IMG/VR virus record: IMGVR_UViG_3300037264_007288
Span: 1-22,775 of that record
Source of the DNA: a virus
Strand: one strand, 5' to 3'
DNA length: 22,775 nucleotides
Position numbers and translations under genes: made by a program. Shown here one piece after another: positions 2-22,202 of the stretch (positions within the stretch are counted from its first letter, which is position 1; every line of letters starts with the position of its first letter). The notes beneath the pieces are model-generated. The model saw only the letters and a list, made by a program, of their open reading frames with translations. It ran no database searches and was not told the origin of the DNA.

Positions 2-2212
2 AAAACCCCACTAGCTCGAGCTGCATTAGACTATGTGACTACAGAGCGGCCAGTCCTGATGAAGAGGGATCCAGTCCTACATAAATTTGGCGTAATGGCC
101 TTTAAGCCAGTTATCCATAAAGGTAAGGCTATACAGATGCATCCACTTGTATGCGAAGGATATGGGGCAGACTTTGATGGAGATACTGTCTCCATCTTTG
201 TGCCACTAACCCATGAGGCGGTAATGGAGGCCCATGGAATGTTCCCATCCAATAACTTATTCAGCTCCACCACAGGACGATTGATGAATAAACTTTCACA
301 TGAATCTCTCCTAGGCGCCTACACCCTATCTGCCTGGGGCAAACCCAGTGATAAGAAGTTTGCTACCAATGATGCAGCATTCGCGGCCGTTAGACAAGGC
401 ACTGTTCATCCCACTGATATCATTAGGATAGGCAACGCTCAAACCACTGTCGGCCGCCAAATTTTGGCGCATGCTCTTCCTGCTGACTTCCAGGTTAAGG
501 GGAAGAACGTCAGAAACTCCCTTGCTACTGACAAGGACTTTATACTGGATAAAAGTCGGCTTACTAACGTACTTTCCGAACTAGCTCACCAAGATAAGTA
601 CAAATTTTCAGAGTCGGTAAGTTTGCTTAACCGTATTGGCGCTGGATACGCCTACTCCTCAGGCTTCTCCATTGGCTTATCAGACCTTAAGCCTGTATCA
701 AAGCTGAGGGATAAGATTCTCCAGGTAGCTGATCTTCAAGTTCAGAAGGTTCGTGATGCTGGTGGCCCCATTGGTACACAGCACAGGGACATTGTAAAGA
801 TATACGATGGAGCTACTCAGGTTATAGAGGAGGCTGCAAAGAAGCACTTCGATGCCTCTGACAATAACATATATAAGATGGTACGTTCCGGTGCCCGAGG
901 CAGTTGGGATCAGTTTAAGCAGATGACTGTCGCGCCCATGCTAGTAAGGAATGCTAAGGGTGAGATTATTCAGGTTCCTATCAAGAAATCGTATTCTGAG
1001 GGTTTAGATACAGCAGAGTACTGGAGCGCCCTGCATGGTGGCCGTGATGGAATTCGGCAGAAGGTTATTGGAACCTCTGAGCCTGGGGCATTTTCTAAGA
1101 CGGTTATGGCTAGCACGGTTAACATGCTCATCTCGTCCCATGACTGTGGAACCCAGCACGGCATTTTTATGCAGGCCAAGGATTCCCAAATTCTCGGCAG
1201 ATTCCTTGCTCAGCCAATTAAACTTAAGGACAGAACCGTACCTAGCGGGACTCCTATTGACCATGAGTTACTGACTCAGTTAGAAAATGCCAAGGTTTCC
1301 AAAGCATTAGTCCGTAGCCCACTCCGTTGTGAACAGCCGCACGGAATTTGCGCTAAGTGCTACGGACTTAATGAGTACGGTAAACTCCACGCGATAGGCA
1401 CCAACATAGGAGCTATGGCCGGCCACTCTATAGGAGAGCCAGCTACCCAGCTTGCTCTGAAGAGCTTCCATGAGGGAGGAGTGGCTGGGACTAAGACGAC
1501 TAAACGTACTGATGCCTTTACCAGACTCAATCAAATCCTGGAGATGCCCAAGATTATGCCCAATGCCGCGGTGTTGGCCAAGGCGGACGGTAAGGTCTCA
1601 AAGATAGAACCGGATCCTGCTGGTGGGTGGGATGTATACATTGGGGAGACCAAGCACTATGTTCCTTCAACTAGACAACTAGGGAAGGATATTAAACCGG
1701 GATCTGACCTGATGAAGGGACTGCCACTCTCCGATGGAGATATACATCCTGCTGAGCTTCTTAAGCTCACCAACGTAAACACGGTCCAGGAGTACCTTAC
1801 GAACGAGTTGTTCCAGGCGTACCAGCCAGTAGGCCCTGTGAAGAGATCCAATATAGAGACTGTGGTGAAGGCTATAACCAACCTATCTCAAGTTGAGGAC
1901 CCAGGGGACCATCCCGACTTTGTCCGCGGAGATATGGTCTCCTCCTCCCAGCTAGTTCATTTAAACAGGACCTCCCTAAGGGGCAGAAAGCCAATAATCT
2001 TCAAGTCTGTACTGAAACCTATTACTCAACTCCCCCTTGATCTATCTACTGACTGGCTTGCCAGGATGAATTATCAGAGGTTAAAGGGAACTCTGGTGGA
2101 TGGTTCTCAACGTGGCTGGACATCTCAGATACATCAGCAGCACCCGATACCCTCCTTAGCTATGGGATCAGAATTTGGCAAAGGTACTCGGGCAGCTCCT
2201 TGGCTCTACTGA
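2..2212 (+). CDS. Phage-encoded RNA polymerase beta-prime subunit, C-terminal part (5' end cut by window)
   Basis: This is the catalytic largest subunit of a multisubunit DNA-dependent RNA polymerase. The frame is open to the window edge, so the gene starts further left; a GTG at 35 is internal and not the true start. Counting from that GTG, residues 44-50 read GADFDGD, the Mg-binding motif (NADFDGD in bacteria), preceded by the usual HP-LVC context. A bridge-helix segment (SGARGS, about 285-290) follows. C371, C432, C439 and C442 match the four zinc cysteines of bacterial beta-prime. The trigger-loop start TQLALKSFHEGG (471-482) keeps the histidine. The distance from the metal motif to the C terminus (about 675 residues) is short, as for enzymes lacking the large SI3 insertion of E. 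coli. The next gene starts one base after the stop, so translation is probably coupled. Family assignment is firm; whether the enzyme is packaged in the virion or acts late in infection cannot be seen. Confidence 0.93.
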   Translation, partial: KTPLARAALDYVTTERPVLMKRDPVLHKFGVMAFKPVIHKGKAIQMHPLVCEGYGADFDGDTVSIFVPLTHEAVMEAHGMFPSNNLFSSTTGRLMNKLSHESLLGAYTLSAWGKPSDKKFATNDAAFAAVRQGTVHPTDIIRIGNAQTTVGRQILAHALPADFQVKGKNVRNSLATDKDFILDKSRLTNVLSELAHQDKYKFSESVSLLNRIGAGYAYSSGFSIGLSDLKPVSKLRDKILQVADLQVQKVRDAGGPIGTQHRDIVKIYDGATQVIEEAAKKHFDASDNNIYKMVRSGARGSWDQFKQMTVAPMLVRNAKGEIIQVPIKKSYSEGLDTAEYWSALHGGRDGIRQKVIGTSEPGAFSKTVMASTVNMLISSHDCGTQHGIFMQAKDSQILGRFLAQPIKLKDRTVPSGTPIDHELLTQLENAKVSKALVRSPLRCEQPHGICAKCYGLNEYGKLHAIGTNIGAMAGHSIGEPATQLALKSFHEGGVAGTKTTKRTDAFTRLNQILEMPKIMPNAAVLAKADGKVSKIEPDPAGGWDVYIGETKHYVPSTRQLGKDIKPGSDLMKGLPLSDGDIHPAELLKLTNVNTVQEYLTNELFQAYQPVGPVKRSNIETVVKAITNLSQVEDPGDHPDFVRGDMVSSSQLVHLNRTSLRGRKPIIFKSVLKPITQLPLDLSTDWLARMNYQRLKGTLVDGSQRGWTSQIHQQHPIPSLAMGSEFGKGTRAAPWLY

Positions 2213-2213
2213 T

Positions 2214-3308
2214 ATGAGCAGGCTAAAGCGGCTGGTATCTCCTGTCGGAGTCTACTTTGGACGGGTGATGGCCATACACCCCGATGAGTACTCGGTAGAT
2301 GTCCTCTCAGAATACCTTGGCCAGTCTTTTGAAAGAATTGCCTATAGCTGCCAGTATGTTCACCATGCTAACGGTGAGGGGAATTACTTCCTACCCGAAG
2401 TAGGCTCATGGTGTTGGGTTTGCATCCCCTCTGACCATAACAAAGCATTCGTAATGGGGTTTATGCCACCCTACTCTATGGTGGATGATCATCGGGCAAA
2501 TAGGCTTGATTTACAGCCCGGCGATCAAGCTATGGTAAGTCGAGAACTGAATGGTATCATAATTAGACGGGGAGGCATTACACAGGTTGGCTCTACTCCG
2601 GTTTGTCAGAGGATCTATACGCCAATAGCGAATACGATCCGGGACCTGTGCGAAAACTATGAGCTCCATTCGGCTTCTGGAAGGCTGCGTTGGTTTGCCA
2701 GGAGGAACACTCCTGACGAGAATTCCAGATCCCCGTCTGAGCTTGTCCTTGAAGCTAAGGAGTTTGCCCAGGACGACCCGAAGGTAATACTTCGGCTAGG
2801 CTCTGTAGAGACCCCAGCTAGTGAGCCGTCAAAGGGGCCAAGGATACCGGCTGGTGTAAAGGTGGTCCTAGACATAGAAGTAGTTGGGTCGTTCAAGTAC
2901 CGAGTGAACTTGAACGGAGATACACTGATGGTGCAGGAAGGGGATCGGTCAATCCATGTGAAGGGAGAAGAGATCCATTTCGTGGATGACGACAGAGAAC
3001 TGAAGATCCTTGGAAATGAGAGAAGGACGCTAATGGGAGACTCCACCCAGTTGTTTGGAGGGGATGTAGATGTAACAGTAAGAGGGGAAAGCACCGAGAA
3101 GGCCCGTAAGAAGGTGATTGTGGCGCCGCAGGTCTTCTTGGGGAATGAGGCTGGAGCTGTGGCTACTGTTCTGGGCCCGCAATTGCTAAACTGGCTTAGA
3201 ACACACACCCACATATCGGCTGCTCCAGGCTCGCAGGTGACGCCACCTGTACAATATGGCGTGTTACAGGATGCTCTCTTTCTGACGAAGAATGTAAAAG
3301 TGACGTAA
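2214..3308 (+). CDS. Baseplate central spike protein (gpV / gp45-like)
   Basis: Likely the membrane-piercing spike at the centre of the baseplate (364 residues). The N-terminal 100 residues (GRVMAIHPDEYSVDVL, later PEVGSWCWVCIPSD) look like the OB-fold of P2 gpV / Mu gp45 spikes: a strand-rich domain around a G-S-W-x-W-V core. The C-terminal half is beta-strand rich with alternating charged residues (VQEGDRSIHVKGEEIHFVDD), as expected for an intertwined beta-helix. It ends with an H-T-H motif (WLRTHTHI), the type that binds a metal ion at spike tips, followed by a Gly/Pro-rich stretch. The chosen ATG lies one base after the beta-prime stop (TGA-T-ATG) with no clear SD, so coupling is likely; an in-frame TTG at 2175 is the alternative. 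The spike class is inferred from remembered family patterns, not an alignment. Confidence 0.7.
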   Translation: MSRLKRLVSPVGVYFGRVMAIHPDEYSVDVLSEYLGQSFERIAYSCQYVHHANGEGNYFLPEVGSWCWVCIPSDHNKAFVMGFMPPYSMVDDHRANRLDLQPGDQAMVSRELNGIIIRRGGITQVGSTPVCQRIYTPIANTIRDLCENYELHSASGRLRWFARRNTPDENSRSPSELVLEAKEFAQDDPKVILRLGSVETPASEPSKGPRIPAGVKVVLDIEVVGSFKYRVNLNGDTLMVQEGDRSIHVKGEEIHFVDDDRELKILGNERRTLMGDSTQLFGGDVDVTVRGESTEKARKKVIVAPQVFLGNEAGAVATVLGPQLLNWLRTHTHISAAPGSQVTPPVQYGVLQDALFLTKNVKVT

Positions 3309-3319
3309 AGGAGAAAACA

Positions 3320-5338
3320 ATGCAAGAACTCTTCGTAACTCGTGAACTGTCCTTCGAAAAAATGGCTGACTCTGGTAAGGTTGGAGATTCTGAAGAGATG
3401 TGGCCACAGGAGATCCTAGATCTCTTTTTCTCACAGCATCCTTACCTAGCAGACCTAGAGTCTACTCCTGTGTTCAAAGAGACCAATCCTGAGAGAGGGT
3501 ACGGGGTAGGTGTTATTGTAGTTAAGAAGAAGCCCGAGGTAATGCCGAAAGACGTAGATGCCTCCGATGTAACTAAAGAGATTAAATTCCCATTTGTGAT
3601 TAAGGATAAGAGTGTTTCCCAACTTGATATCTTTATAGTTGGTGAGACCTTCCATCCAGCCTCAGAGCAGAATATTCAGGCTGCCCTCTTTCGCCCAGAC
3701 CTCTTTGATATCGTGCGAACTATGCCTGGTGATGTCTCCATGGTTAACCAGCTGTACCCTCCATACCGTTCCCGCTATGGATTTGGCACCAGCTTTGAGG
3801 GTGGAGCAGGTGGGAAGTTCGCCAGTGTAGACTTCTCCAAGATCTCCATGCTGGAGCAGCTTAATGGTATCGTCTCTCCATCGGACCTGGCCAGACTGCT
3901 ACAGGCTGTCAATGAGGATCCGGCAATTAAGGAAGCCTCCGAAGGTAAGACTGTCCTAGCTACGGTATTGAAGAAGATTTCAATGGATGATACAAACATC
4001 CATAAATTAGTAGATGTCCGTCGGCATGCTGTTGATCCGGACGTATTACAGTTCACCAGGGACGGTGGCTCAGTCAAGGTTAAGTTTGCAAATAGCCAAA
4101 TGTGGGCTCCGCAGGAAGAAGTCTTCACTCTCAAGGAAGCGGCTGAAATGCTACCTGCAAGTCAGCGCTCCCAATTCATGGCGACCGGTAGTATAACCGT
4201 GAGCACTGAGCCCACCGTTAATGGAACGTCCAGGGCTCCAGAAGCAGTATCTATCAAGACGTCTGGAGTATATGGAATCAAGTCTGGCTCCAGCTCAGAT
4301 ACCAGCAATGCCACGGTTTACTCCAAGGTGATAGATTTTGATACTACTGAGCTTCCGGTTCAGGTAGCTCTATTCCACGATGGTAGTTGGGCAATGCAAG
4401 ATAAGCTTGCTGGCATTCCATATACAGAAGCACCTAACTCAGGGTTAAATGGGCGGGCAAAAGTTAAAGACTATATCTCTGGAGAGGCTTTTCCAAAACT
4501 CGGCATGGTGATCTTTGCCAGTGCTGATCTTGCTACTCTACCAGTGAATCTTCGTAGCATGAAGAATTCAGATGGAATGACGGTTCTGCATGGGACAACT
4601 TCTATGGAACAACCCATAGACTTAATTCCAACTGAGGGCATCAAGCGGATTGAGAAGCTAGGACAGAGCAGATATGCCATTCCAGCTAGCCTAGATGTTA
4701 TTCCGCTAGCCAACATGGTCAAGTGCTCAGAGGATCCAGGAGCCTATGTAAAGGTAGCTACATTGAATAGCTCTGTGCAGATTATCAGTGATGGGACTAC
4801 CTTTGGATTCAGGGGCCATCCTAGCCTATTAAAATTGGGGCAGGATCAGACAAGCTTTCTGAATCATCAGGATGCCCTGTTCCTATCCGCCGGATTCGGT
4901 ATGTCCATCAAGCAGGCAACAGCCTCCCTCCAAAAAGCAGCCACTGCCGGGATGGTCACTGTTCAGGGCGTTAGGCCGATAGTTACCGACTCTGAGAAAA
5001 TTGCGTTGGCCCTCACTACATATATCCAGCCAATAGCTGACCAATTATCAGCAGTTCGGGTATTGCTGGTGAAGGAAGCAGCTATCCTACCCGGTGAGGA
5101 GACAGTTGATAGAGTTCTATCTCTAAACTTTATAACTCCAGAGAATGTATCTATCTTTGTCAAAAACCTTCCTGCATTCCAGAACACAGCATCAGAGCTC
5201 GCCAAACTTCTGGTAGCATCCAGGCTTGGTCTAGAGGCAGTCCCTGAGGGAGCTGTTCAGAGAGCAATGAATGCTCTTCAGGGTGTTATTGAAGCACTAC
5301 TCCAGCTGAAGTACAGTTCACCGGTGAATAAGGCCTAG
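3320..5338 (+). CDS. Large probable virion protein of unknown function (672 aa)
   Basis: I do not recognise the family. The gene has a strong SD (AAAGGAG, 8 bases or so before the ATG) and follows the spike gene by 11 bases. The N terminus has a R-E-L-S-F-E-K-M-A stretch resembling the E-L-x-K-L-A start of several small proteins in this window. The first 270 residues are mixed alpha/beta, with a Gly-rich turn (EGGAGGKF, about 165-172). The middle part (290-470) is rich in Ser/Thr/Val, like a beta-structured virion domain. The last 130 residues are Leu/Ala-rich and probably helical. There are no signal peptide, membrane segment or enzymatic motifs I can name. Size, place beside the spike and late-gene context suggest a structural or tail-associated protein. 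It does not look like a portal. Confidence 0.8.
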   Translation: MQELFVTRELSFEKMADSGKVGDSEEMWPQEILDLFFSQHPYLADLESTPVFKETNPERGYGVGVIVVKKKPEVMPKDVDASDVTKEIKFPFVIKDKSVSQLDIFIVGETFHPASEQNIQAALFRPDLFDIVRTMPGDVSMVNQLYPPYRSRYGFGTSFEGGAGGKFASVDFSKISMLEQLNGIVSPSDLARLLQAVNEDPAIKEASEGKTVLATVLKKISMDDTNIHKLVDVRRHAVDPDVLQFTRDGGSVKVKFANSQMWAPQEEVFTLKEAAEMLPASQRSQFMATGSITVSTEPTVNGTSRAPEAVSIKTSGVYGIKSGSSSDTSNATVYSKVIDFDTTELPVQVALFHDGSWAMQDKLAGIPYTEAPNSGLNGRAKVKDYISGEAFPKLGMVIFASADLATLPVNLRSMKNSDGMTVLHGTTSMEQPIDLIPTEGIKRIEKLGQSRYAIPASLDVIPLANMVKCSEDPGAYVKVATLNSSVQIISDGTTFGFRGHPSLLKLGQDQTSFLNHQDALFLSAGFGMSIKQATASLQKAATAGMVTVQGVRPIVTDSEKIALALTTYIQPIADQLSAVRVLLVKEAAILPGEETVDRVLSLNFITPENVSIFVKNLPAFQNTASELAKLLVASRLGLEAVPEGAVQRAMNALQGVIEALLQLKYSSPVNKA

Positions 5339-7518: not shown

Positions 7519-7542
7519 TTGCCCTACGTGCTTATACCATGA
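7519..7542 (+). CDS. Possible 7-codon leader peptide coupled to the terminase gene
   Basis: An AGGAG (7507-7511) sits 27 bases from the terminase ATG, too far to serve it, but exactly 7 bases before TTG 7519. From this TTG a mini-frame encodes MPYVLIP and its TGA overlaps the terminase ATG (ATGA). This would let ribosomes reach the terminase start by coupling. It is a reading of spacing only; the peptide is too short to show coding bias. Confidence 0.25.
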   Translation: MPYVLIP

Positions 7543-9224
7543 TTGCAAGCCCAGAATTACCGTACAGCGCAGGAACTAGGACTGACAAGGTTAAGCTCTC
7601 CCAGGCTAGTAAGGCAAAGGACAAGGGGGCTGAGCCAGAATTCAATACTAGGTTTCTCCCCTCTGACTTCATCAACAGGCTTATCTATGTCGATGGGCAT
7701 CCATTTAGTAAGGGCGGTGGCTTCGAGAGTCGACCGTACTTGCTCCCTATCTGTGATAGGAACCACAAGAAGCTTCTCCTAAAGTGCGGCCGGCAGGTGG
7801 AAAAGTCGACTACGTTGGGGAATAGGCTCCTAACCTTTCACTGCCTAATACCATTCTTTCGATCCCTATTCATAGCCCCTACTGAGACGCAAGTACGCCG
7901 ATTTTCCATGGAGAGAATTACTAAGACCCTTCTAACTTCCCCGGGACTAAAGCCTATTAGAGAAGCTATGACTTTAGACAACGTAATGCATAAGGAATTC
8001 CCTAATAACTCCTCCCTCATGTTTGGATCAGTCTTCCATACCCCTGATAGAGTCCGCGGTGTTGCGGCCGACTGTATCCAACTGGATGAAATCCAAGATA
8101 TCGTAAGTGACCATATCCCGGTTATAGAAGAAACTCTCTCGCACTCTAACCCTGAGTACAAGTACTTTTGGGCTGCTGGAACACCCAAGAGTATGGACAA
8201 TCCCATAGAGGTTTACTGGGATAGATTCTCCACTCAGCATGAATGGACAGTCCCATGTGAGAGGCATACACCGCTTCATTGGAACGTTCTTGGAATTAAG
8301 AATGTAGGACTAGAGGGGCTCATATGTGACAAATGTGGAGAGAGGATAAACGCTAGCTCAGGTAAGTGGCAGATGCTAGGAAATCCAAAGGCTGAATTTC
8401 ATGGGTACCATATTTCCCAGTTGATGGTCCCATGGATTCAATGGTCCAGCATCATTACTAGGATGAAGCGGTATCCAGTTGACAAGTTCTACAACGAAGT
8501 ACTCGGGCTTTCCTATGATAGCGGTACTCGCCCGCTCTCTCGAAAGGATCTGCAGAAGCACTGTGTACCAGATATGCATTATACGTATATCCAACTAGTC
8601 GAGCTTCAGAGAAGACACCAGCTTCGACTCTTTATGGGCATAGACTGGGGAACAGGCACAGACAGCTTCACTGTAGTTACTGTCGTTGGCTACCATCCTG
8701 TCCATGGACGCCTTACCGATCTATATTCCAAAAAGTTTATTGGAGAAGAGGCTGATCCTGTTAGGCAACTAGAGCTTATTAAGCAAATGATCAACGACTT
8801 GGAGATAGAGCGAGTAGGCTGCGACTGGGGTTTCGGTTACTACCAGAATGACTCCCTTATGCGTACATACGGGAGACAGAGAGTAGCCTCCTACATGTAC
8901 ACGGCTGGGCAGACAAGAAAGGTCTACTGGGAACCTAACCTTAGGCGTTTCATGGTAAATAGGACTGCAGTTATGTCTGACATATTCAACGGAATTAAGC
9001 GGGGCGCCTTCCACTTTTTTGATGAAAAGTACTTCTTAGAAGAGTTTGGATCCGACTTTTTGAATATTTTCGCGGAATATTCTGAGAGGGCCAGAATGGT
9101 CCTGTATAACCATCCAGTTGGTAGGCCTGACGACTCATTCCACTCTTTCCTATATGCGGTTCTGGCCAGTATGCTTTCCCATCCTAGACCGGACATTCTT
9201 GAACCAGAAGCGGATCGGGGCTAA
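7539..9224 (+). CDS. terL: Terminase large subunit
   Basis: The packaging motor ATPase and headful nuclease (561 residues). The Walker A motif is CGRQVEKST (residues 83-91), a variant with Glu in the usual Gly place that is known among terminases. Walker B with the catalytic acid is CIQLDE (179-184). A coupling-like T-P-K segment (AAGTPKS, about 212-218) follows. C240, H243, C263 and C266 form a zinc-knuckle-like insert between the ATPase and nuclease halves. The RNase H-like nuclease shows acidic residues at D369 (MGIDWGTG), D429 (GCDWGFG) and D531/D532 (RPDDSFHS). There is no good SD at the ATG; see the possible leader peptide. The motor would dock on a portal and cut concatemeric DNA. Confident family call. 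Confidence 0.95.
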   Translation: MIASPELPYSAGTRTDKVKLSQASKAKDKGAEPEFNTRFLPSDFINRLIYVDGHPFSKGGGFESRPYLLPICDRNHKKLLLKCGRQVEKSTTLGNRLLTFHCLIPFFRSLFIAPTETQVRRFSMERITKTLLTSPGLKPIREAMTLDNVMHKEFPNNSSLMFGSVFHTPDRVRGVAADCIQLDEIQDIVSDHIPVIEETLSHSNPEYKYFWAAGTPKSMDNPIEVYWDRFSTQHEWTVPCERHTPLHWNVLGIKNVGLEGLICDKCGERINASSGKWQMLGNPKAEFHGYHISQLMVPWIQWSSIITRMKRYPVDKFYNEVLGLSYDSGTRPLSRKDLQKHCVPDMHYTYIQLVELQRRHQLRLFMGIDWGTGTDSFTVVTVVGYHPVHGRLTDLYSKKFIGEEADPVRQLELIKQMINDLEIERVGCDWGFGYYQNDSLMRTYGRQRVASYMYTAGQTRKVYWEPNLRRFMVNRTAVMSDIFNGIKRGAFHFFDEKYFLEEFGSDFLNIFAEYSERARMVLYNHPVGRPDDSFHSFLYAVLASMLSHPRPDILEPEADRG

Positions 9225-9672: not shown

Positions 9673-10452
9673 ATGCATTCAACCAAGGGCTTTTTCAAAG
9701 TACATTGGGACTTTTTCAAGACAGGGCGAGCTAGAGATATAGGTGCCAACGCTGGTTGGGTCCTCTGTGCACTCCATTCCTTTGCGAACAAGGAGGGGGA
9801 GTGCTACCCAAGTCTAGAAACTCTAGCTGCTATGACAAAGCTTTCAATAGGTACTGTAGTTAAATCCAGGGGGATTCTTAAGGAAGCTAAACTTATTGAT
9901 TTTGCTGTCTCAAGAGATGGTAAAAAGAACATTACCCACTACAGAGTATTCCCACTGGAAGGAGTTGATGTTCTCAAAGATATAGAGGCCGATGCCAATA
10001 GCCAACCCAGCGAGGAATTTCAGGCCTATCTTACGGCACTTAGAAATCTCTCTGAGACCTACCCCGAGGATGCATCCTATTTGAAGACTAATATTCAGAC
10101 TCTTAGGCTAATGAAGGTGCCCAATAAAATTCGGCAATACGTCCAGAATGCTGAGAAGGACCTGGATAATACATTTTTATATTTTGCCCTCTCGCTAGCA
10201 AGAACAATACGTGTAGTGGCAGAGTCCTTTAAGCCCCCAGCAACTATAGCTGTGAGGGGTAAGGTAGATGCACTGGTAGGTATCGCTAATTCGATGTTTA
10301 AAGCCTCAGAGATCCTGGATTGCACCTTTGAGTCTGCAGCTAGTGTCTTCCTGAAGTGGGTAGATACTGAGAAAAAGAATGTGTCTATAAATACTGGAGT
10401 ATTGCTCCCGATATCTGAGGAATGGGTTAAGAGATTGAGGAAATCTCAGTAG
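9673..10452 (+). CDS. Winged helix-turn-helix protein, replication-initiator-like (259 aa)
   Basis: The N-terminal 95 residues resemble the winged-helix domain of phage O-type and DnaD-type replication proteins and related regulators: WVLCALHSFANKEGECYPS, then SLETLAAMTKLSIGTVVKS (recognition helices about 48-68), then a wing (ITHYRVFPL). The remaining 160 residues are helical and charged, with no motif I can identify. ATG 9673 has AAAGGAG about 8 bases upstream. The gene is alone on + among two minus-strand genes and overlaps the converging gene at its 3' end by 26 bases. It may control this island or initiate replication nearby. DNA binding is likely; the exact role is not shown. Confidence 0.72.
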   Translation: MHSTKGFFKVHWDFFKTGRARDIGANAGWVLCALHSFANKEGECYPSLETLAAMTKLSIGTVVKSRGILKEAKLIDFAVSRDGKKNITHYRVFPLEGVDVLKDIEADANSQPSEEFQAYLTALRNLSETYPEDASYLKTNIQTLRLMKVPNKIRQYVQNAEKDLDNTFLYFALSLARTIRVVAESFKPPATIAVRGKVDALVGIANSMFKASEILDCTFESAASVFLKWVDTEKKNVSINTGVLLPISEEWVKRLRKSQ

Positions 10453-10939
10453 GTACTATAGCGTTATCCATGTACCCATATATGAAGTTCTCAATGGCTT
10501 CTTTAAGCTCAGGGGCGAATCGTAGCAAGTAGGAGTGCGCTTGATACTCCAACTTAGCTGCGACGCCCCTGAGTCTACTTTCCAACACTTTTAGCTTATA
10601 AGAACTCTTGAAATCGGGCTGCCCCTCTACCTGGAGTTTCATCATATAGAACAGCCGAAATAGCGGGAGCCAGGCAAGCTTCTTTTTAGCTTTAGTCTCT
10701 ATACATCTCAAATCCTCTTGGGACATATACCACACCATTTCAATTGAGGCCTGCATCTCTTCAGAGGTCCAACTTTTCTTCGCCATAAGATTGGTAAGAA
10801 TGGACCAAGCAGCTTCTACTTCCTTCTGAGTCCGCGGTTTATTGTTCGGATTTAGGCCCATGAGATGAAATAAACCAACTACCGCCTCATTCGTTTGTAT
10901 ACCCAAGGCCTCTATTCTTGATAGTCTCTCTTCATCCAT
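10427..10939 (-). CDS. Hypothetical helical protein on the minus strand (170 aa)
   Basis: This ORF fills a stretch with no + strand frame and reads like a real protein: MDEERLSRIEALG, then long amphipathic helices (VEAAWSILTNLMAKKSWT, AHSYLLRFAPELKEAIENF). There is no signal peptide or membrane span. It converges on the winged-helix gene with a 26-base tail overlap. No SD precedes the ATG; instead a sigma70-like promoter places transcription start at the ATG itself (see regulatory entry). I do not recognise the family. Being opposite to the late operon, it may be expressed at another time. Confidence 0.65.
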   Translation of the reverse strand: MDEERLSRIEALGIQTNEAVVGLFHLMGLNPNNKPRTQKEVEAAWSILTNLMAKKSWTSEEMQASIEMVWYMSQEDLRCIETKAKKKLAWLPLFRLFYMMKLQVEGQPDFKSSYKLKVLESRLRGVAAKLEYQAHSYLLRFAPELKEAIENFIYGYMDNAIVPTEISSIS

Positions 10940-13069: not shown

Positions 13070-14770
13070 ATGTATAAGCTAAGTTACTTTCCTGGGGTTG
13101 ACCCAAAAACGGGTGAGGCGCTTGTACAGGTTATCAAGCCTGGCGAAGCTAGCTTAGAGAAGCTATCCCAAGCAATACATCCAAAACTACGTGCCTACTT
13201 AGCAAAGCTCAAGCCAGAGCCAGACAAGGTCTATGTACTATGCATAGCTTTAGGAGCCTCTGAGTATTATGGGCAAAATATCAATGGGGATATTTTTCCA
13301 GAAAGTGCTCTGGCTCATGTAGGCCACGACTATGGCTACCAGAGCTTTCTCGATGGACACGCCTTTAAGCATCATCAGAATAAGAATCCGGAGGTCTCCT
13401 TCGGCTCTATAGAGCTATCTATTTGGAATGACTCTATGAAGAGAGTAGAGTTGGTACTAGCTCTTGATAAAAATAGGGCAAAGCAATTCGATGCACAGGA
13501 TGTCACCGACAAGATTGAGGCTGGAATCCCATGTTCCGTATCTATGGGATGCAAGGTCCCATACGACATCTGCTCTATCTGCAGTAATAGGGCTAAAACT
13601 AGGGCGGATTACTGCTTCCACCTTTTGAATGAGATGAACAAGATTTATGAGGATGGGCGCCAGGCAGGAGCCATTAATACTATGCCCAGATTCTTTGATA
13701 TCTCCTTCGTATTTATCGGCGCAGATCGTATTGCCAAAACTATATGCAAGATAGCCTCTGGAGGCTGCTGTGAGTTGTGCTCAACTATTTCTGGAAAGGT
13801 AGATGAGCAGGATTCTAAGCATGCTGATGCGAAACCAACTCCTAAGGCTCTCGTGAAGGAGCATACAAAACTGGTTAAAGTTCTTCGTAGCCCCAGTCAT
13901 ACGGATGACATTCGTGAGGCTGCTAAACAGGAAAAAGAACTAAAGGAATATAAGAAATCCGCCTCTGTAGGAAAGATAGGAGATATCTTCAAAGAAGTAC
14001 CATCCTCCTTTGTTAGCAAAACTGTGCCAGCTCTGGAATCTAGCGAACCTACTTTACCCAGAAATATTCTGGATGATATGGCTACCAAGTACCCTCTAGG
14101 ACAGTCGCTGGGAACTACTGCAGCCATGGGAATGCCGCTCAAGCCTCAAGAATTTCAGCGGATAGTACTTATTCGCCTCGGGCAGAAGAACCTGGCAGAT
14201 GAGCTAGATTCCAAGGGAGAGTGCTTTGGGCCCTCCCAGAATACTGACGAGTCACTACCCATGGGTGGAACTAGTGGTGAGCTCCTAAGCCGACTTCTCC
14301 CATTTTTGAAGGAAAGAAGCGGTTTTGGGCCTATTTTGAAAATACGGATTACTAGGATAACCGTAGAACCTACAAAACAAGCCAGCCCCTCAGTTATCTC
14401 TAAAAGGGTATTCCTTGACAAGATAGCTGAAGGATATAATGGCTACAGGTTGAGATTGCTAACTCAGATGCCGAATGAGCTGCCCACAACGTTGGATCAG
14501 CACCCGGAGCTAGCGGCAGAACTATTTAGGGAAAATTTCCTGGATACGTTCACTAAGGAAGCAGCTGACCTAAAGAACTCTGGACCGTTGAAAGTGCTCT
14601 TAGGGGTCTTTCCAATACTGTACTTTTTATCCGCACATTGGAAGGATCAAGAAGTGCATGGGCAGAGACTGGGATTCGTCAAGAAATTTGTGGCGGAGCA
14701 CCCAGAGTTGAGCAGCCTGCTGCTAGCAGGAGCCGCGGCACAGGTGATGAATCAAAAGGTTCCAGCATAG
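13070..14770 (+). CDS. Probable prohead (capsid maturation) protease with Cys-rich insert (566 aa)
   Basis: Likely the serine protease that matures the prohead. Residues 68-77 read YGQNINGDIF, a N-x-N-G-D pattern seen near the start of such proteins. A His cluster lies at H97/H101/H102 (GHAFKHHQNK). After strands ending in RVELVLALD, the segment GIPCSVSMGCKVPYD (152-166) offers Ser156/158 as nucleophile. A zinc-finger-like set C168, C171, C182 and H184 and a second group (GCCELC, about 232-237) follow. RFFDISFVFIGADRIA (207-222) resembles the DIS-x-V-x-x-PADR end of protease domains in large phages. The 340-residue C-terminal part is unlike this domain and ends in a hydrophobic helix (LKVLLGVFPILYFLS). 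Catalytic residues are inferred, not aligned. Position just before scaffold-like and capsid genes fits. The start has only a weak SD. Confidence 0.6.
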   Translation: MYKLSYFPGVDPKTGEALVQVIKPGEASLEKLSQAIHPKLRAYLAKLKPEPDKVYVLCIALGASEYYGQNINGDIFPESALAHVGHDYGYQSFLDGHAFKHHQNKNPEVSFGSIELSIWNDSMKRVELVLALDKNRAKQFDAQDVTDKIEAGIPCSVSMGCKVPYDICSICSNRAKTRADYCFHLLNEMNKIYEDGRQAGAINTMPRFFDISFVFIGADRIAKTICKIASGGCCELCSTISGKVDEQDSKHADAKPTPKALVKEHTKLVKVLRSPSHTDDIREAAKQEKELKEYKKSASVGKIGDIFKEVPSSFVSKTVPALESSEPTLPRNILDDMATKYPLGQSLGTTAAMGMPLKPQEFQRIVLIRLGQKNLADELDSKGECFGPSQNTDESLPMGGTSGELLSRLLPFLKERSGFGPILKIRITRITVEPTKQASPSVISKRVFLDKIAEGYNGYRLRLLTQMPNELPTTLDQHPELAAELFRENFLDTFTKEAADLKNSGPLKVLLGVFPILYFLSAHWKDQEVHGQRLGFVKKFVAEHPELSSLLLAGAAAQVMNQKVPA

Positions 14771-18386: not shown

Positions 18387-19544
18387 ATGAGCGTTCCAGC
18401 TTCCACCTTCAATCAGCTCTTCGCATCGGCCATCGATACTAGCGAAGGCCGGGAGAAGATCGCGCAGTATGGAGGCACCTACATCAGAGATCGTCTGAGA
18501 GAGGTGTCCTTCGCAAGAAAGGTCCTGCCACCCGAAATGGTCACGCGTAGTGACCTACAGCGCTCGGTAAACCACGATACGCTAGTCAAGATCGTGGATA
18601 TTGAGCCGAAGTCTCGGGCGATGGCGATCACGTTCCGTGGTCGTCCAACAGCTCGGTTCATTAGGGGTGCTCGTTATGAGATCCCCTTCTTCTCGATCAC
18701 GTCGGAAATGTTCGAGAAGACCGAGCAGGAACTCCTAGCCTACGAGATGCCCATCACGAAAGTGATTGAGGACAACTCGGTCAAGGATATTCAGGAGATC
18801 GAGGACCGGCAGTTCCTGTTGTATATCGAAGCCGCGGTCAACTCGACCATGACTGAGGTATACGACGGTGTGGTAACAGCGGGTAACTACTCGACGGATG
18901 CGTTCGATTCAACGAACGTGAACGCTGGGGACTTCCCTCTGATCATCGGTTCAGTTGGTACCACGAAGATCAAGGGTGAACTGGCGCTATCGGCCGCCCC
19001 GGACTTTGTGGTTCGTCCGGTCCAGAGGAACGACTTCGTTACGTTGTTCAAGCTCCTTGATGGAGCTCGGCTGCGTGCGAATCGGATCCTGATCACCGAA
19101 GTCGATTTCGACGATATTCTGCAGTGGACTCTGCAGGATAATGGTGACAAGATCCAGTCTGAGACGACCACGGATGGCTACAAGTACGGCAATATCCTAG
19201 GTCGGGCTTTGATTCGTACCATCAAGACCGATATTCTCCGTGCGGGGAATATCTATTGCTTCACCGAGCCGAAGTTCCTTGGGAACTTCTTCGTCCTGAA
19301 TAACACCAAGTTCTACATTGATAAGAGGGCAAATCTTATCATGTGGCAGAGCTGGGAAGATATCGGGATGGGGATCGGGAACATCCGGTCCGTCGTGAAG
19401 CTAGAGCTGTACAGCGGTTCGGTCAACCCCGCCAACACCACGGCTGGCTTCGCTGCTGCGTTGCCATCCGCTGAAGGTGCGTTGGGTGCAGAGAACCACC
19501 GCGCCGATGAGGGCAGAACCTTCCCCCAGGTGGATCAGTTCTAA
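18387..19544 (+). CDS. Major capsid protein
   Basis: The shell protein (385 residues) with an HK97-like fold. The start has AAAGGAG 10 bases upstream. Recognisable stretches: an N-terminal arm (REVSFARKVLPPEMV), an E-loop-like region (ITFRGRPTARFI), a long helix with a run of acidic residues (DIQEIEDRQFLLYIEAAVN), the LITEVDFDDILQWTLQD helix and a C-terminal core that contains GNIYCFTEPKFLGNFFVLNNTKF. The KFYIDKRANLIMWQSWEDIGMG segment matches a capsid family I know from other tailed phages. Codon use is biased (many GAG, AAG, ATC, CGT), as in highly expressed genes. The only catalytic partner would be the upstream protease. A strong hairpin follows. Confidence 0.85.
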   Translation: MSVPASTFNQLFASAIDTSEGREKIAQYGGTYIRDRLREVSFARKVLPPEMVTRSDLQRSVNHDTLVKIVDIEPKSRAMAITFRGRPTARFIRGARYEIPFFSITSEMFEKTEQELLAYEMPITKVIEDNSVKDIQEIEDRQFLLYIEAAVNSTMTEVYDGVVTAGNYSTDAFDSTNVNAGDFPLIIGSVGTTKIKGELALSAAPDFVVRPVQRNDFVTLFKLLDGARLRANRILITEVDFDDILQWTLQDNGDKIQSETTTDGYKYGNILGRALIRTIKTDILRAGNIYCFTEPKFLGNFFVLNNTKFYIDKRANLIMWQSWEDIGMGIGNIRSVVKLELYSGSVNPANTTAGFAAALPSAEGALGAENHRADEGRTFPQVDQF

Positions 19545-20686: not shown

Positions 20687-21286
20687 ATGCCGGATGTCCC
20701 GCAGATTAATCTCGGGTCTGACCACCGGCTGCGGGACTGGGTTCAGCTTACCCGTGACTTCATGCGAGATTACGGGGAGCTGAATCGGCTCATGGCGGGA
20801 GAAGAAACCTCTGACCGCATGATCGCTTTTGGTCTCATGTTCACTGTGGATAAGTTCAATATCCTTCCTCCACTCATCGGCGCCTTTAGCATATCTGATA
20901 TGCCTCACTACCTTCTGCTAAAGGGCACAGCCTCCCATATCATGCAGTCGGCCGGGATCCTGCAGACTAGGAACCAGCTCGACTATTCCGCGGGTGGAGT
21001 CTCGGTAGCCCATAGCAATAAGACACCGCTATACCAGTCTTGGTCCCAAATGTGGGATTCAGAGTGGCATCAAATGGCTAAACAGTTCAAGGTCGCTATG
21101 AACATAGAGCGGGCATATGGTCATTCTGTAAGTTCAGAGTATCTTTTTCTCAATGGATTTTTTCGGGGACTTTTAAAGGGAGAGTATGTCTACAAATTGT
21201 GTAGTCTTGGGCGACTTCTATGGTACTATGTTCTGGAAAGGGCTAGCCAGTCTAAATCCTTTTCAGAAAGGTATATCTATGCCTAA
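20687..21286 (+). CDS. Head completion / neck-type protein, C-terminal end suspect (199 aa)
   Basis: The first 158 residues look like a genuine conserved protein: MPDVPQINLGSDHRLRDWV start, then TASHIMQSAGILQTRNQLDY, then KQFKVAMNIERAYGHSVSSEY. I recall comparable neck or head completion proteins that keep an N-x-E-x-A-Y-G ... SSEY end. The last ~40 residues (RGLLKGEYVYKLCSLGRLLWYY...) are unlike that part, coincide with the region before a homing endonuclease, and overlap its start. The native C terminus may therefore have been replaced. Only a weak purine run (AAGAG) precedes the ATG. Function is inferred from position and memory of the family. Confidence 0.6.
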   Translation: MPDVPQINLGSDHRLRDWVQLTRDFMRDYGELNRLMAGEETSDRMIAFGLMFTVDKFNILPPLIGAFSISDMPHYLLLKGTASHIMQSAGILQTRNQLDYSAGGVSVAHSNKTPLYQSWSQMWDSEWHQMAKQFKVAMNIERAYGHSVSSEYLFLNGFFRGLLKGEYVYKLCSLGRLLWYYVLERASQSKSFSERYIYA

Positions 21287-22202
21287 AGTACGAGTTTCAT
21301 ATCATGGTTATAGCGTAGATGAAAGTTTCTTCGAGAGAATTGACTCGGAACCAAAAGCCTACTGGTTAGGATTCTTATCCGCTGATGGCACCATCGGCAA
21401 TAACTTTATCTCTTTAAAGTTAACCGCAAGTGATCGAGATCACTTAGAGAAGTTTAAGAGAGCTCTTCAGAGTGATCATAGAATAACTGAGGAATCCAGT
21501 AGCCTTTCTTGGACAAATAAGGATGGCCAAGAAAAAATTGGGGAATACCACTCGGTCAAAGTTCACATAGGCTCCCAGAGATTGAGGAAAAGTCTAATAA
21601 AACTGGGAGTAACTCCTAGGAAGACATGGACTATAACTCCCTGCAATGAAATCCCGGAAAATATGCTTATCCACTACTGGAGGGGGGTATTTGATGGAGA
21701 TGGGAGTATTAGTCATCCCAAACCTACTCAGAGCCAGCGAATCATGCCATGGGAGATCAATATAGTCGGGAACGAAGCCATGATAAGAGGATTTGCTAGT
21801 TTTATACGTAAAGAGGTTTCTACTAGGGCACAGCCCAGAAGACACAGGGGAAATATGTGGATGTTTAGAGTTGGTGGCACCAGGCTTTGCCAACAGATTC
21901 TGCACCTACTGTATGATCGTTCTCACGAATGCCTAAGTAGGAAGAGGGCGTTAGCTGACCAAGTCTTTGAGACTGAAATTCTCAGAAAGAGTAGAGCTGA
22001 GCTCAAGCTAGATGAGCTTTTAATTCTGCGAAGAAAATATAGTTCATGGAATCAGTTAGCTAAGAGCCTAGATATGGGCTCTGGACAACTGTTCAATACT
22101 CTAAAGAGGCTAGGCCTATCAGCAGAGTCTATAACTAGACTTGGCGGAGAAGCTGGCTGGCATGCACAAGAACGAAATAAGATAGGAGCTACAAGTGGAT
22201 AA
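21279..22202 (+). CDS. LAGLIDADG homing endonuclease (307 aa)
   Basis: A site-specific DNA endonuclease of the two-motif LAGLIDADG family. Motif 1 is WLGFLSADGT (residues 29-38, catalytic D36) and motif 2 is YWRGVFDGDGSI (133-144, catalytic D141). Between them lies a basic half (KSLIKLGVTPRK). Residues 255-280 (SWNQLAKSLDMGSGQLFNTLKRLGL) resemble a helix-turn-helix used for DNA recognition. I chose ATG 21279 because AAAGG lies 8 bases upstream; the same frame is open to an ATG at 21186. It overlaps the neck gene by 8 bases and the next gene by 8. No intein splice signatures (Cys/Ser block A or a HN end) are present. Whether it is free-standing or in a group I intron is not decided. Confidence 0.88.
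   Translation: MPKVRVSYHGYSVDESFFERIDSEPKAYWLGFLSADGTIGNNFISLKLTASDRDHLEKFKRALQSDHRITEESSSLSWTNKDGQEKIGEYHSVKVHIGSQRLRKSLIKLGVTPRKTWTITPCNEIPENMLIHYWRGVFDGDGSISHPKPTQSQRIMPWEINIVGNEAMIRGFASFIRKEVSTRAQPRRHRGNMWMFRVGGTRLCQQILHLLYDRSHECLSRKRALADQVFETEILRKSRAELKLDELLILRRKYSSWNQLAKSLDMGSGQLFNTLKRLGLSAESITRLGGEAGWHAQERNKIGATSG

Follow-up and report, generated by a model that had tools for sequence, protein, structure and literature searches.

A probable single-chain, virion-packaged RNA polymerase of bacterial type in a lineage of large tailed phages

The stretch of DNA analysed here, referred to as the window, is a linear fragment of 22,775 bases from an IMG/VR virus record, and it begins inside a gene for the beta' subunit of RNA polymerase that is followed by genes for virion proteins. 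Such an arrangement raises the question of whether the enzyme belongs to a phage or to its host, what form the complete polymerase takes, and whether it travels in the virion or is made late with promoters of its own, the two roles that the first-pass annotation of this DNA had proposed.

The beta' open reading frame (ORF) at the left edge of the window (Table 1) has an open 5' end and, at 736 of ~1,055 aa, represents roughly 70% of beta'. The metal motif, bridge helix, trigger loop, and Rpb1 domains identify it as a beta' of the multisubunit type (RpoC/Rpb1); the Pfam models RNA_pol_Rpb1_5 (78 bits), Rpb1_2 (69 bits), and Rpb1_4 (31 bits) scored above their cut-offs, and Rpb1_3 fell just below its own (28.1 against 28.9 bits). 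An AlphaFold2 model of the window protein, for which the input was 40 phage sequences, reached a pLDDT of 84 and a pTM of 0.79, and Foldseek matched it over nearly its full length to bacterial beta' chains with E-values down to 2.6e-49. The bacterial character of the chain, its continuity over the visible part, its metal motif, bridge helix, four zinc cysteines, and trigger-loop histidine had all been read from the DNA in the first-pass annotation, and each of them was recovered here in one unsplit ORF on the plus strand. The first zinc cysteine, C382, we take to be the equivalent of E. coli beta' C814. The metal motif carries Gly in place of the usual Asn, as it does in 8 of 62 fused relatives described below. 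Judged by its sequence, the segment is intact and its set of catalytic residues complete.

Table 1. Positions of the features assigned in the 22,775-base window, with the basis of each assignment
Feature	Position	Strand	Basis
RNA polymerase beta', C-terminal 736 aa	2..2212	+	ORF, Pfam, relatives; 5' end outside record
Catalytic Mg2+ motif GADFDGD (aa 55-61)	164..184	+	D57/D59/D61 conserved in alignment
Bridge helix NNIYKMVRSGARGSWDQFKQMTVAPMLV (aa 288-315)	863..946	+	Helices in AlphaFold2 model
DCGT, first Zn cysteine C382	1142..1153	+	Motif/alignment
CEQPHGICAKC, Zn cysteines C443, C450, C453	1328..1360	+	Motif/alignment
Trigger loop region with H490 (nt 1469-1471)	1433..1549	+	Motif/alignment
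Conserved beta' C-terminal segment, ending ...EFGKG	2051..2185	+	Alignment
gp5-like baseplate spike/hub	2175..3308	+	Weak matches; likely ATG 2214, right after beta' stop
672-aa conserved protein, function unassigned	3320..5338	+	After spike in 45/45 loci with both
Terminase large subunit	7539..9224	+	GpA_ATPase PF05876; phrog_675, 227 bits
Probable head maturation protease	13070..14770	+	Weak match
Major head protein	18387..19544	+	phrog_2522; homologues in relatives

The beta' trees, built on 699 columns with FastTree and IQ-TREE (LG+C20+F+G4), were in agreement and placed phages and bacteria on opposite sides of one branch (support 100/99), with the window outside all sampled bacterial rpoC. 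The 24 rows of fused phages grouped together to the exclusion of the separate-gene Rhizobium phage (100/100). Within them the window fell in a 16-row fused set (97/95), nearest to loci L004 and L018 with weak support; on these alignments its place among the fused phages can be regarded as firm, its exact sister not. A phage clade apart from cellular RNA polymerases is thereby found in our own sample, in which mReC sequences (see below) were not included, and the window fits in it. Profile searches and a tree had been named as checks in the first-pass annotation, and neither of the outcomes given there as refuting was seen, the catalytic residues being present and the window grouping with phages and not within bacterial rpoC. 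Mislabelling does occur, as three records in the phage collection (OR844998, OR846602, and CAKLQH020000005) carry ordinary bacterial rpoB-rpoC and represent contamination; however, the position of the window in the trees, together with the terminase, head protein, and spike genes on the same contig as beta', leaves a fragment of host rpoC or a mislabelled bacterial contig with a negligible probability. The contaminating rpoB-rpoC are of a Bacilli-like type and of an Acinetobacter type with rplKAJL, and short Listeria/Salmonella OR84/OR85 records possibly hold the same contamination. The entries L010 and L013, labelled as Staphylococcus/Enterococcus phage and carrying separate beta and beta' genes, were considered as mReC phages and rejected as bacterial contamination, the trees placing them beside Mycoplasma. 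A scan of genome contigs returned only bacterial rpoBC among its best 80 matches and gave no host assignment.

The form of the complete enzyme is indicated by its relatives. A scan of IMG/VR with the window protein yielded six close relatives, and in all six full-length near relatives the homologue was the end of one ORF of 2,058-2,829 aa that also holds beta; in the closest of them the window sequence corresponds to the C-terminal third of one beta-beta' polypeptide of ~2,060 aa. The whole fusion was present on at least 60 IMG/VR contigs. A profile scan extended the set to 157 relatives, with 80 loci kept, and beta and beta' shared one ORF at 74 of 93 phage-collection loci, some of them truncated at the edge of the contig. 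At 11 of the 93, beta was fused to beta'N and a second gene encoded beta'C, and among 81 bacterial loci one fusion was seen (Helicobacter anseris); these counts describe the relatives of the fused protein and not all phage polymerases because the profile query was itself fused. The protein of locus L003 contains Rpb2_3, Rpb2_6, Rpb1_2, and Rpb1_5, in this order and above the Pfam cut-offs, and the AlphaFold2 model of the junction region matched both RpoB and RpoC chains. The junction is almost free of linker, the end of beta (GMGIDVKKEG) running into the start of beta' (NDLILQPLTD). The N-terminal zinc ribbon of beta' (CxC...CxxC), a region that falls outside the window and was scored in the fused relatives, is missing from all 62 of the fused proteins, in which 1-6 residues replace 19.

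Because the 5' part of the window's own gene lies outside the record, we infer from these relatives that it is likewise fused to beta, in which case the ORF would be the last ~36% of a single-chain beta-beta' polymerase. The first-pass annotation was right in calling beta' phage-borne and intact; what the fragment could not show is that beta' is probably no gene of its own but the 3' end of a single-chain beta-beta' gene, as in every full-length near relative, and that the lineage has lost the other, N-terminal zinc ribbon. A separate beta' gene in the window alone, with only the relatives fused, could be argued from a record that begins inside beta' with the fusion out of view, from the known separate-gene phages (Rhizobium phage RHph_TM3_3_6, Vibrio Va2, and Cobetia Carin-5), and from one subclade split inside beta'. 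However, the nearest kin of the window (L004, L018, L002, L003, and L051) are all fused, the trees set the separate-gene phages apart as a sister branch to the fused clade, and the split point of the subclade, before TTVGR at about residue 149 of the window protein, lies inside the window ORF, where there is no break, making a separate gene improbable. In that subclade (L060, L064, L065, L069, L081, L086, L088, L092, Salmonella phage Arash L011, and Vibrio phage D181 L008), the chain is cut at a constant place, the first piece ending in ...DPIKIG and the second starting with TTVGR... at about residue 550-570 of bacterial beta', and other genes usually lie between the two pieces. In phage D181 the polymerase gene is broken into three pieces, and genes for homing endonucleases lie close by.

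The virion genes of the window provide a further view of its lineage. Among the 13 longest relatives, ten have a major head protein 52-66% identical to that of the window and the other three a more distant homologue. Each of the 16 metagenome contigs tested, with a fused or split polymerase, had a homologue, as did Arash and D181 at greater distance, and none was detected in the three separate-gene phages searched. Since the head protein homologues match the tree result, the window is assigned to the fused-polymerase lineage. Beyond the polymerase and spike, the window is a virion cluster containing the terminase, the probable head protease, and the major head protein. The spike assignment itself is based on weak gp5-like similarity: phrog_430 (baseplate hub/lysozyme) scored 23.9 bits, and Gp5_trimer_C and Phage_base_V stayed under their cut-offs. 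Across the relatives, 58 of the 70 loci that extend far enough have the portal gene upstream on the same strand, and the spike lies downstream of the polymerase at 45 of 65, usually directly and with a median gap of 1 nt. As this portal/spike order recurs, the adjacency of polymerase and spike is a lineage trait; it had been noticed in the first-pass annotation and is real, as is the surrounding virion cluster, and it is not peculiar to one phage.

Several other genes in the window deserve mention. The gene at 21186-22202 resembles homing endonucleases (phrog_4645, 156 bits). It comes immediately after the gene at 20687-21286, which seems uninterrupted, its L003 homologue ending at about the same point and no Rfam intron being present; the Rfam search of the window as a whole returned no family. 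Between the terminase and head genes lie an HTH_36 gene resembling DnaD- or O-like replication initiators (9673-10452) and a reverse-strand ORF at 10427-10939.

The partner subunits were surveyed in 13 related contigs of 166-210 kb, all of which have one beta' per genome. In cellular multisubunit RNA polymerases, alpha is needed to assemble beta with beta'. A search for alpha was negative in all 13 related contigs and positive in 13 of 14 control genomes. The standard Pfam sigma models (PF04542 and PF04545) mostly returned nothing in the related genomes, and the idea that most genomes have no sigma was rejected when Gp10 of phage Arash was used as query, as a homologue then turned up in 18 of the 22 long contigs, the 13 longest all among them, and also in Vibrio phage D181; none was found in the separate-gene phages searched. 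Arash Gp10 matched Sigma70_r3 with 35.7 bits, and in the relatives the r3 model was above cut-off in several and the r4 model in one. The set found in the relatives is therefore one single-chain core and one divergent sigma-like protein, without alpha. The window itself, a genome fragment of 22.8 kb, gave no sigma factor. Loss of the beta flap tip, the dock for sigma region 4, was considered and dropped, as the segment keeps its length in the alignment and has diverged in sequence. A Swi2/Snf2-type helicase encoded beside Arash beta'C was likewise rejected as a fixed partner, its family occurring in only 12 of 21 genomes. With the zinc ribbon lost and the sigma-like factor diverged, the phage promoters may differ from host promoters; a promoter word search in a 202-kb relative gave nothing convincing.

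The cultured Salmonella phage Arash (OQ632216) belongs to the clade by its polymerase, head protein, and sigma-like protein, although as a distant member, being 22.7% identical over the aligned part of the window protein. Its Gp206 (1,525 aa), annotated only as beta, is a fusion of beta and beta'N, and Gp216 (606 aa) is beta'C. In the published LC-MS analysis of the Arash virion, Gp206 was the most detected protein, with 3,516 spectra and 128 unique peptides, and Gp216 (1,210 spectra, 40 unique peptides), the sigma-like Gp10 (467 and 24), the adjacent helicase Gp217 (1,148 and 38), and the capsid protein (1,333 spectra) were also recorded (PMC10585845). Expressed per residue, for which spectral counts are a rough guide only, this amounts to 2.3 spectra for Gp206, 2.0 for Gp216, and 2.0 for Gp10, these three and the helicase spanning 2.0-2.4, compared with 1.5 for the portal and 4.3 for the capsid. 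Enzymes unlikely to be structural were present in the preparation as well, namely ribonucleotide reductase, primase, and DNA ligase, with 2-11 unique peptides, and its authors raise the alternative that the enzymes were carried over from infected cells (PMC10585845).

Such carry-over would account for the Arash signal if the same single-chain enzyme stayed out of the virion, served late genes, and had its gene clustered with theirs for co-expression. The location of the polymerase gene in the late structural cluster and the other soluble enzymes in the Arash preparation are compatible with this, as is the presence of only one polymerase per genome, compared with the separate virion and non-virion enzymes of phiKZ-like phages (PMC13282480). 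However, the polymerase pieces, sigma-like factor, and helicase reach the level of the portal per residue, and their unique peptides are to be set against the few of the ribonucleotide reductases, primase, and DNA ligase. Because polymerase and sigma detection is so high next to these soluble enzymes, a packaged holoenzyme is favoured over a late non-virion enzyme, which we regard as unlikely. By analogy with Arash, the polymerase of the window's own phage would also be packaged, so that the phage probably enters the cell equipped with transcription machinery of its own. Of the two roles in the first-pass annotation, virion carriage thus gains from the Arash data, and no promoter word was found for the late enzyme with its own promoters. 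Overall, there is good reason to read the window as encoding part of the single-chain bacterial-type core of a large tailed phage, packaged in the virion with a sigma-like factor.

How a packaged single-chain enzyme might function can be outlined. Joining beta to beta' would replace the alpha-nucleated assembly and would fix the beta:beta' ratio at 1:1. The enzyme would be made late, alongside the virion proteins, packaged with the sigma-like factor, and injected with the DNA, after which the core, threaded as one chain, could refold and start from phage promoters without waiting for the host RNA polymerase. One gene would then give a complete injectable core, and with the sigma-like factor a ready holoenzyme, acting as the sole polymerase of the phage in early (perhaps also later) transcription, and the fusion may have been selected for tail passage and refolding without alpha. 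This last, fuller reading is tentative, and we give it somewhat less than an even chance.

RNA polymerases of phiKZ-like and crAss-like phages are known, the crAss-like enzyme having beta-like and beta'-like parts in one chain and being delivered by the virion. In contrast to the crAss-like polymerase, which is reported to be so diverged that cellular beta/beta' profiles miss it (PMC7481178), the proteins of the window lineage score 69-206 bits with cellular profiles and have clear BLAST and PDB matches. The Chimalliviridae (phiKZ/AR9) resemble the window lineage in encoding a multisubunit-type polymerase, one of which is packaged in the virion, and their enzymes have no alpha or omega homologues (PMC13282480); however, they consist of 4-5 polypeptides, with two enzymes per phage, and are far more diverged than the continuous chain described here. 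The phiKZ-type PHROGs 3015, 2962, 2987, and 2986 scored at most 60 bits with the window protein, against 298 for phrog_25354. Bacterial rpoBC fusions (Helicobacter, Wolbachia) also have beta followed by beta' in one chain, although in the trees that of Helicobacter anseris (L112; 2,901 aa) falls among bacteria, and it retains the zinc ribbon at the N terminus of beta'.

The closest described group is that of the multi-subunit RNAP-encoding Caudovirales (mReC) of Weinheimer & Aylward 2020, comprising 97 contigs (PMC7481178). Like the window lineage, they are metagenomic tailed phages, some over 200 kb, with a bacterial-like, alignable beta/beta' that is encoded amid virion genes and forms a clade apart from cellular enzymes. 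They are set apart by their published description, which gives two subunits instead of a single chain and uses the word fused only for crAssphage (PMC7481178). Where detected, the mReC head proteins belong to PF07068 and the terminases to PF03237 (PMC7481178), whereas the window head protein has no Pfam match, PF07068 included. For the terminase the picture is mixed, that of the window matching only PF05876 and that of the relative L066 matching PF05876 (47.8 bits) and, at the cut-off, PF03237 (22.0 bits). Another paper mentions, in a basal position to the mReC clade, a gene for 'RNAP beta and beta prime' that it does not call fused (PMC10159854). Arash and the Vibrio phages D181, D148, and D69 belong to the same clade as the window and have the polymerase gene near the portal, although their chain is cut inside beta', unlike in the fused relatives, and in D181 again within beta. 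Phages with bacterial-like beta/beta' were already known (mReC, PMC7481178), and the single-chain form appears to be new, our search of open-access papers having found no description of a single-chain bacterial-like phage RNA polymerase.

A widespread lineage with a linker-free fusion, no recognisable alpha, and a lost zinc ribbon offers a natural test of the minimal bacterial-type polymerase, and a multisubunit-type enzyme encoded by one gene would be suited to structural work. The cultured phages Arash and D181 make packaging, tail injection, and early host-independent transcription testable outside the phiKZ group, and the lineage supplies many sequences for re-testing the claim of an ancient phage RNA polymerase branch.

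Many proteins of the lineage that are otherwise unrelated share a short element at the N terminus, F-x-DEL-x-KIA, for example in L003 at 3889 (MNPHMYSAFLDELEKIARGG), in L058 at 24566, in L087 at 22349, and in the window at 22195 and 22455. Within the first 40 aa it occurs 3.1 times per 10,000 residues, against 0.75 elsewhere, and none was found in bacterial N-termini. A role as a tag for targeting or for a protease, for instance at the prohead, is conceivable. The polymerase, when searched for it, was without the element, and no packaging signal was identified there.

Inserts of 118-510 aa, mostly with intein-like ends, were observed in 14 of the 62 fused polymerases (L005, L007, L044, L050, L070, L071, L079, L080, L081, L082, L089, L090, L094, and L095). 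They lie at the most conserved motifs, namely after NADFDGD, beside GDK/GRHGNKG, in the trigger loop (FH/TGG), and near the fourth zinc cysteine, and in several relatives they fall exactly at the region corresponding to the trigger loop of the window. The L080 polymerase, of 3,596 aa, has four inserts, with Intein_splicing and LAGLIDADG domains detected by Pfam.
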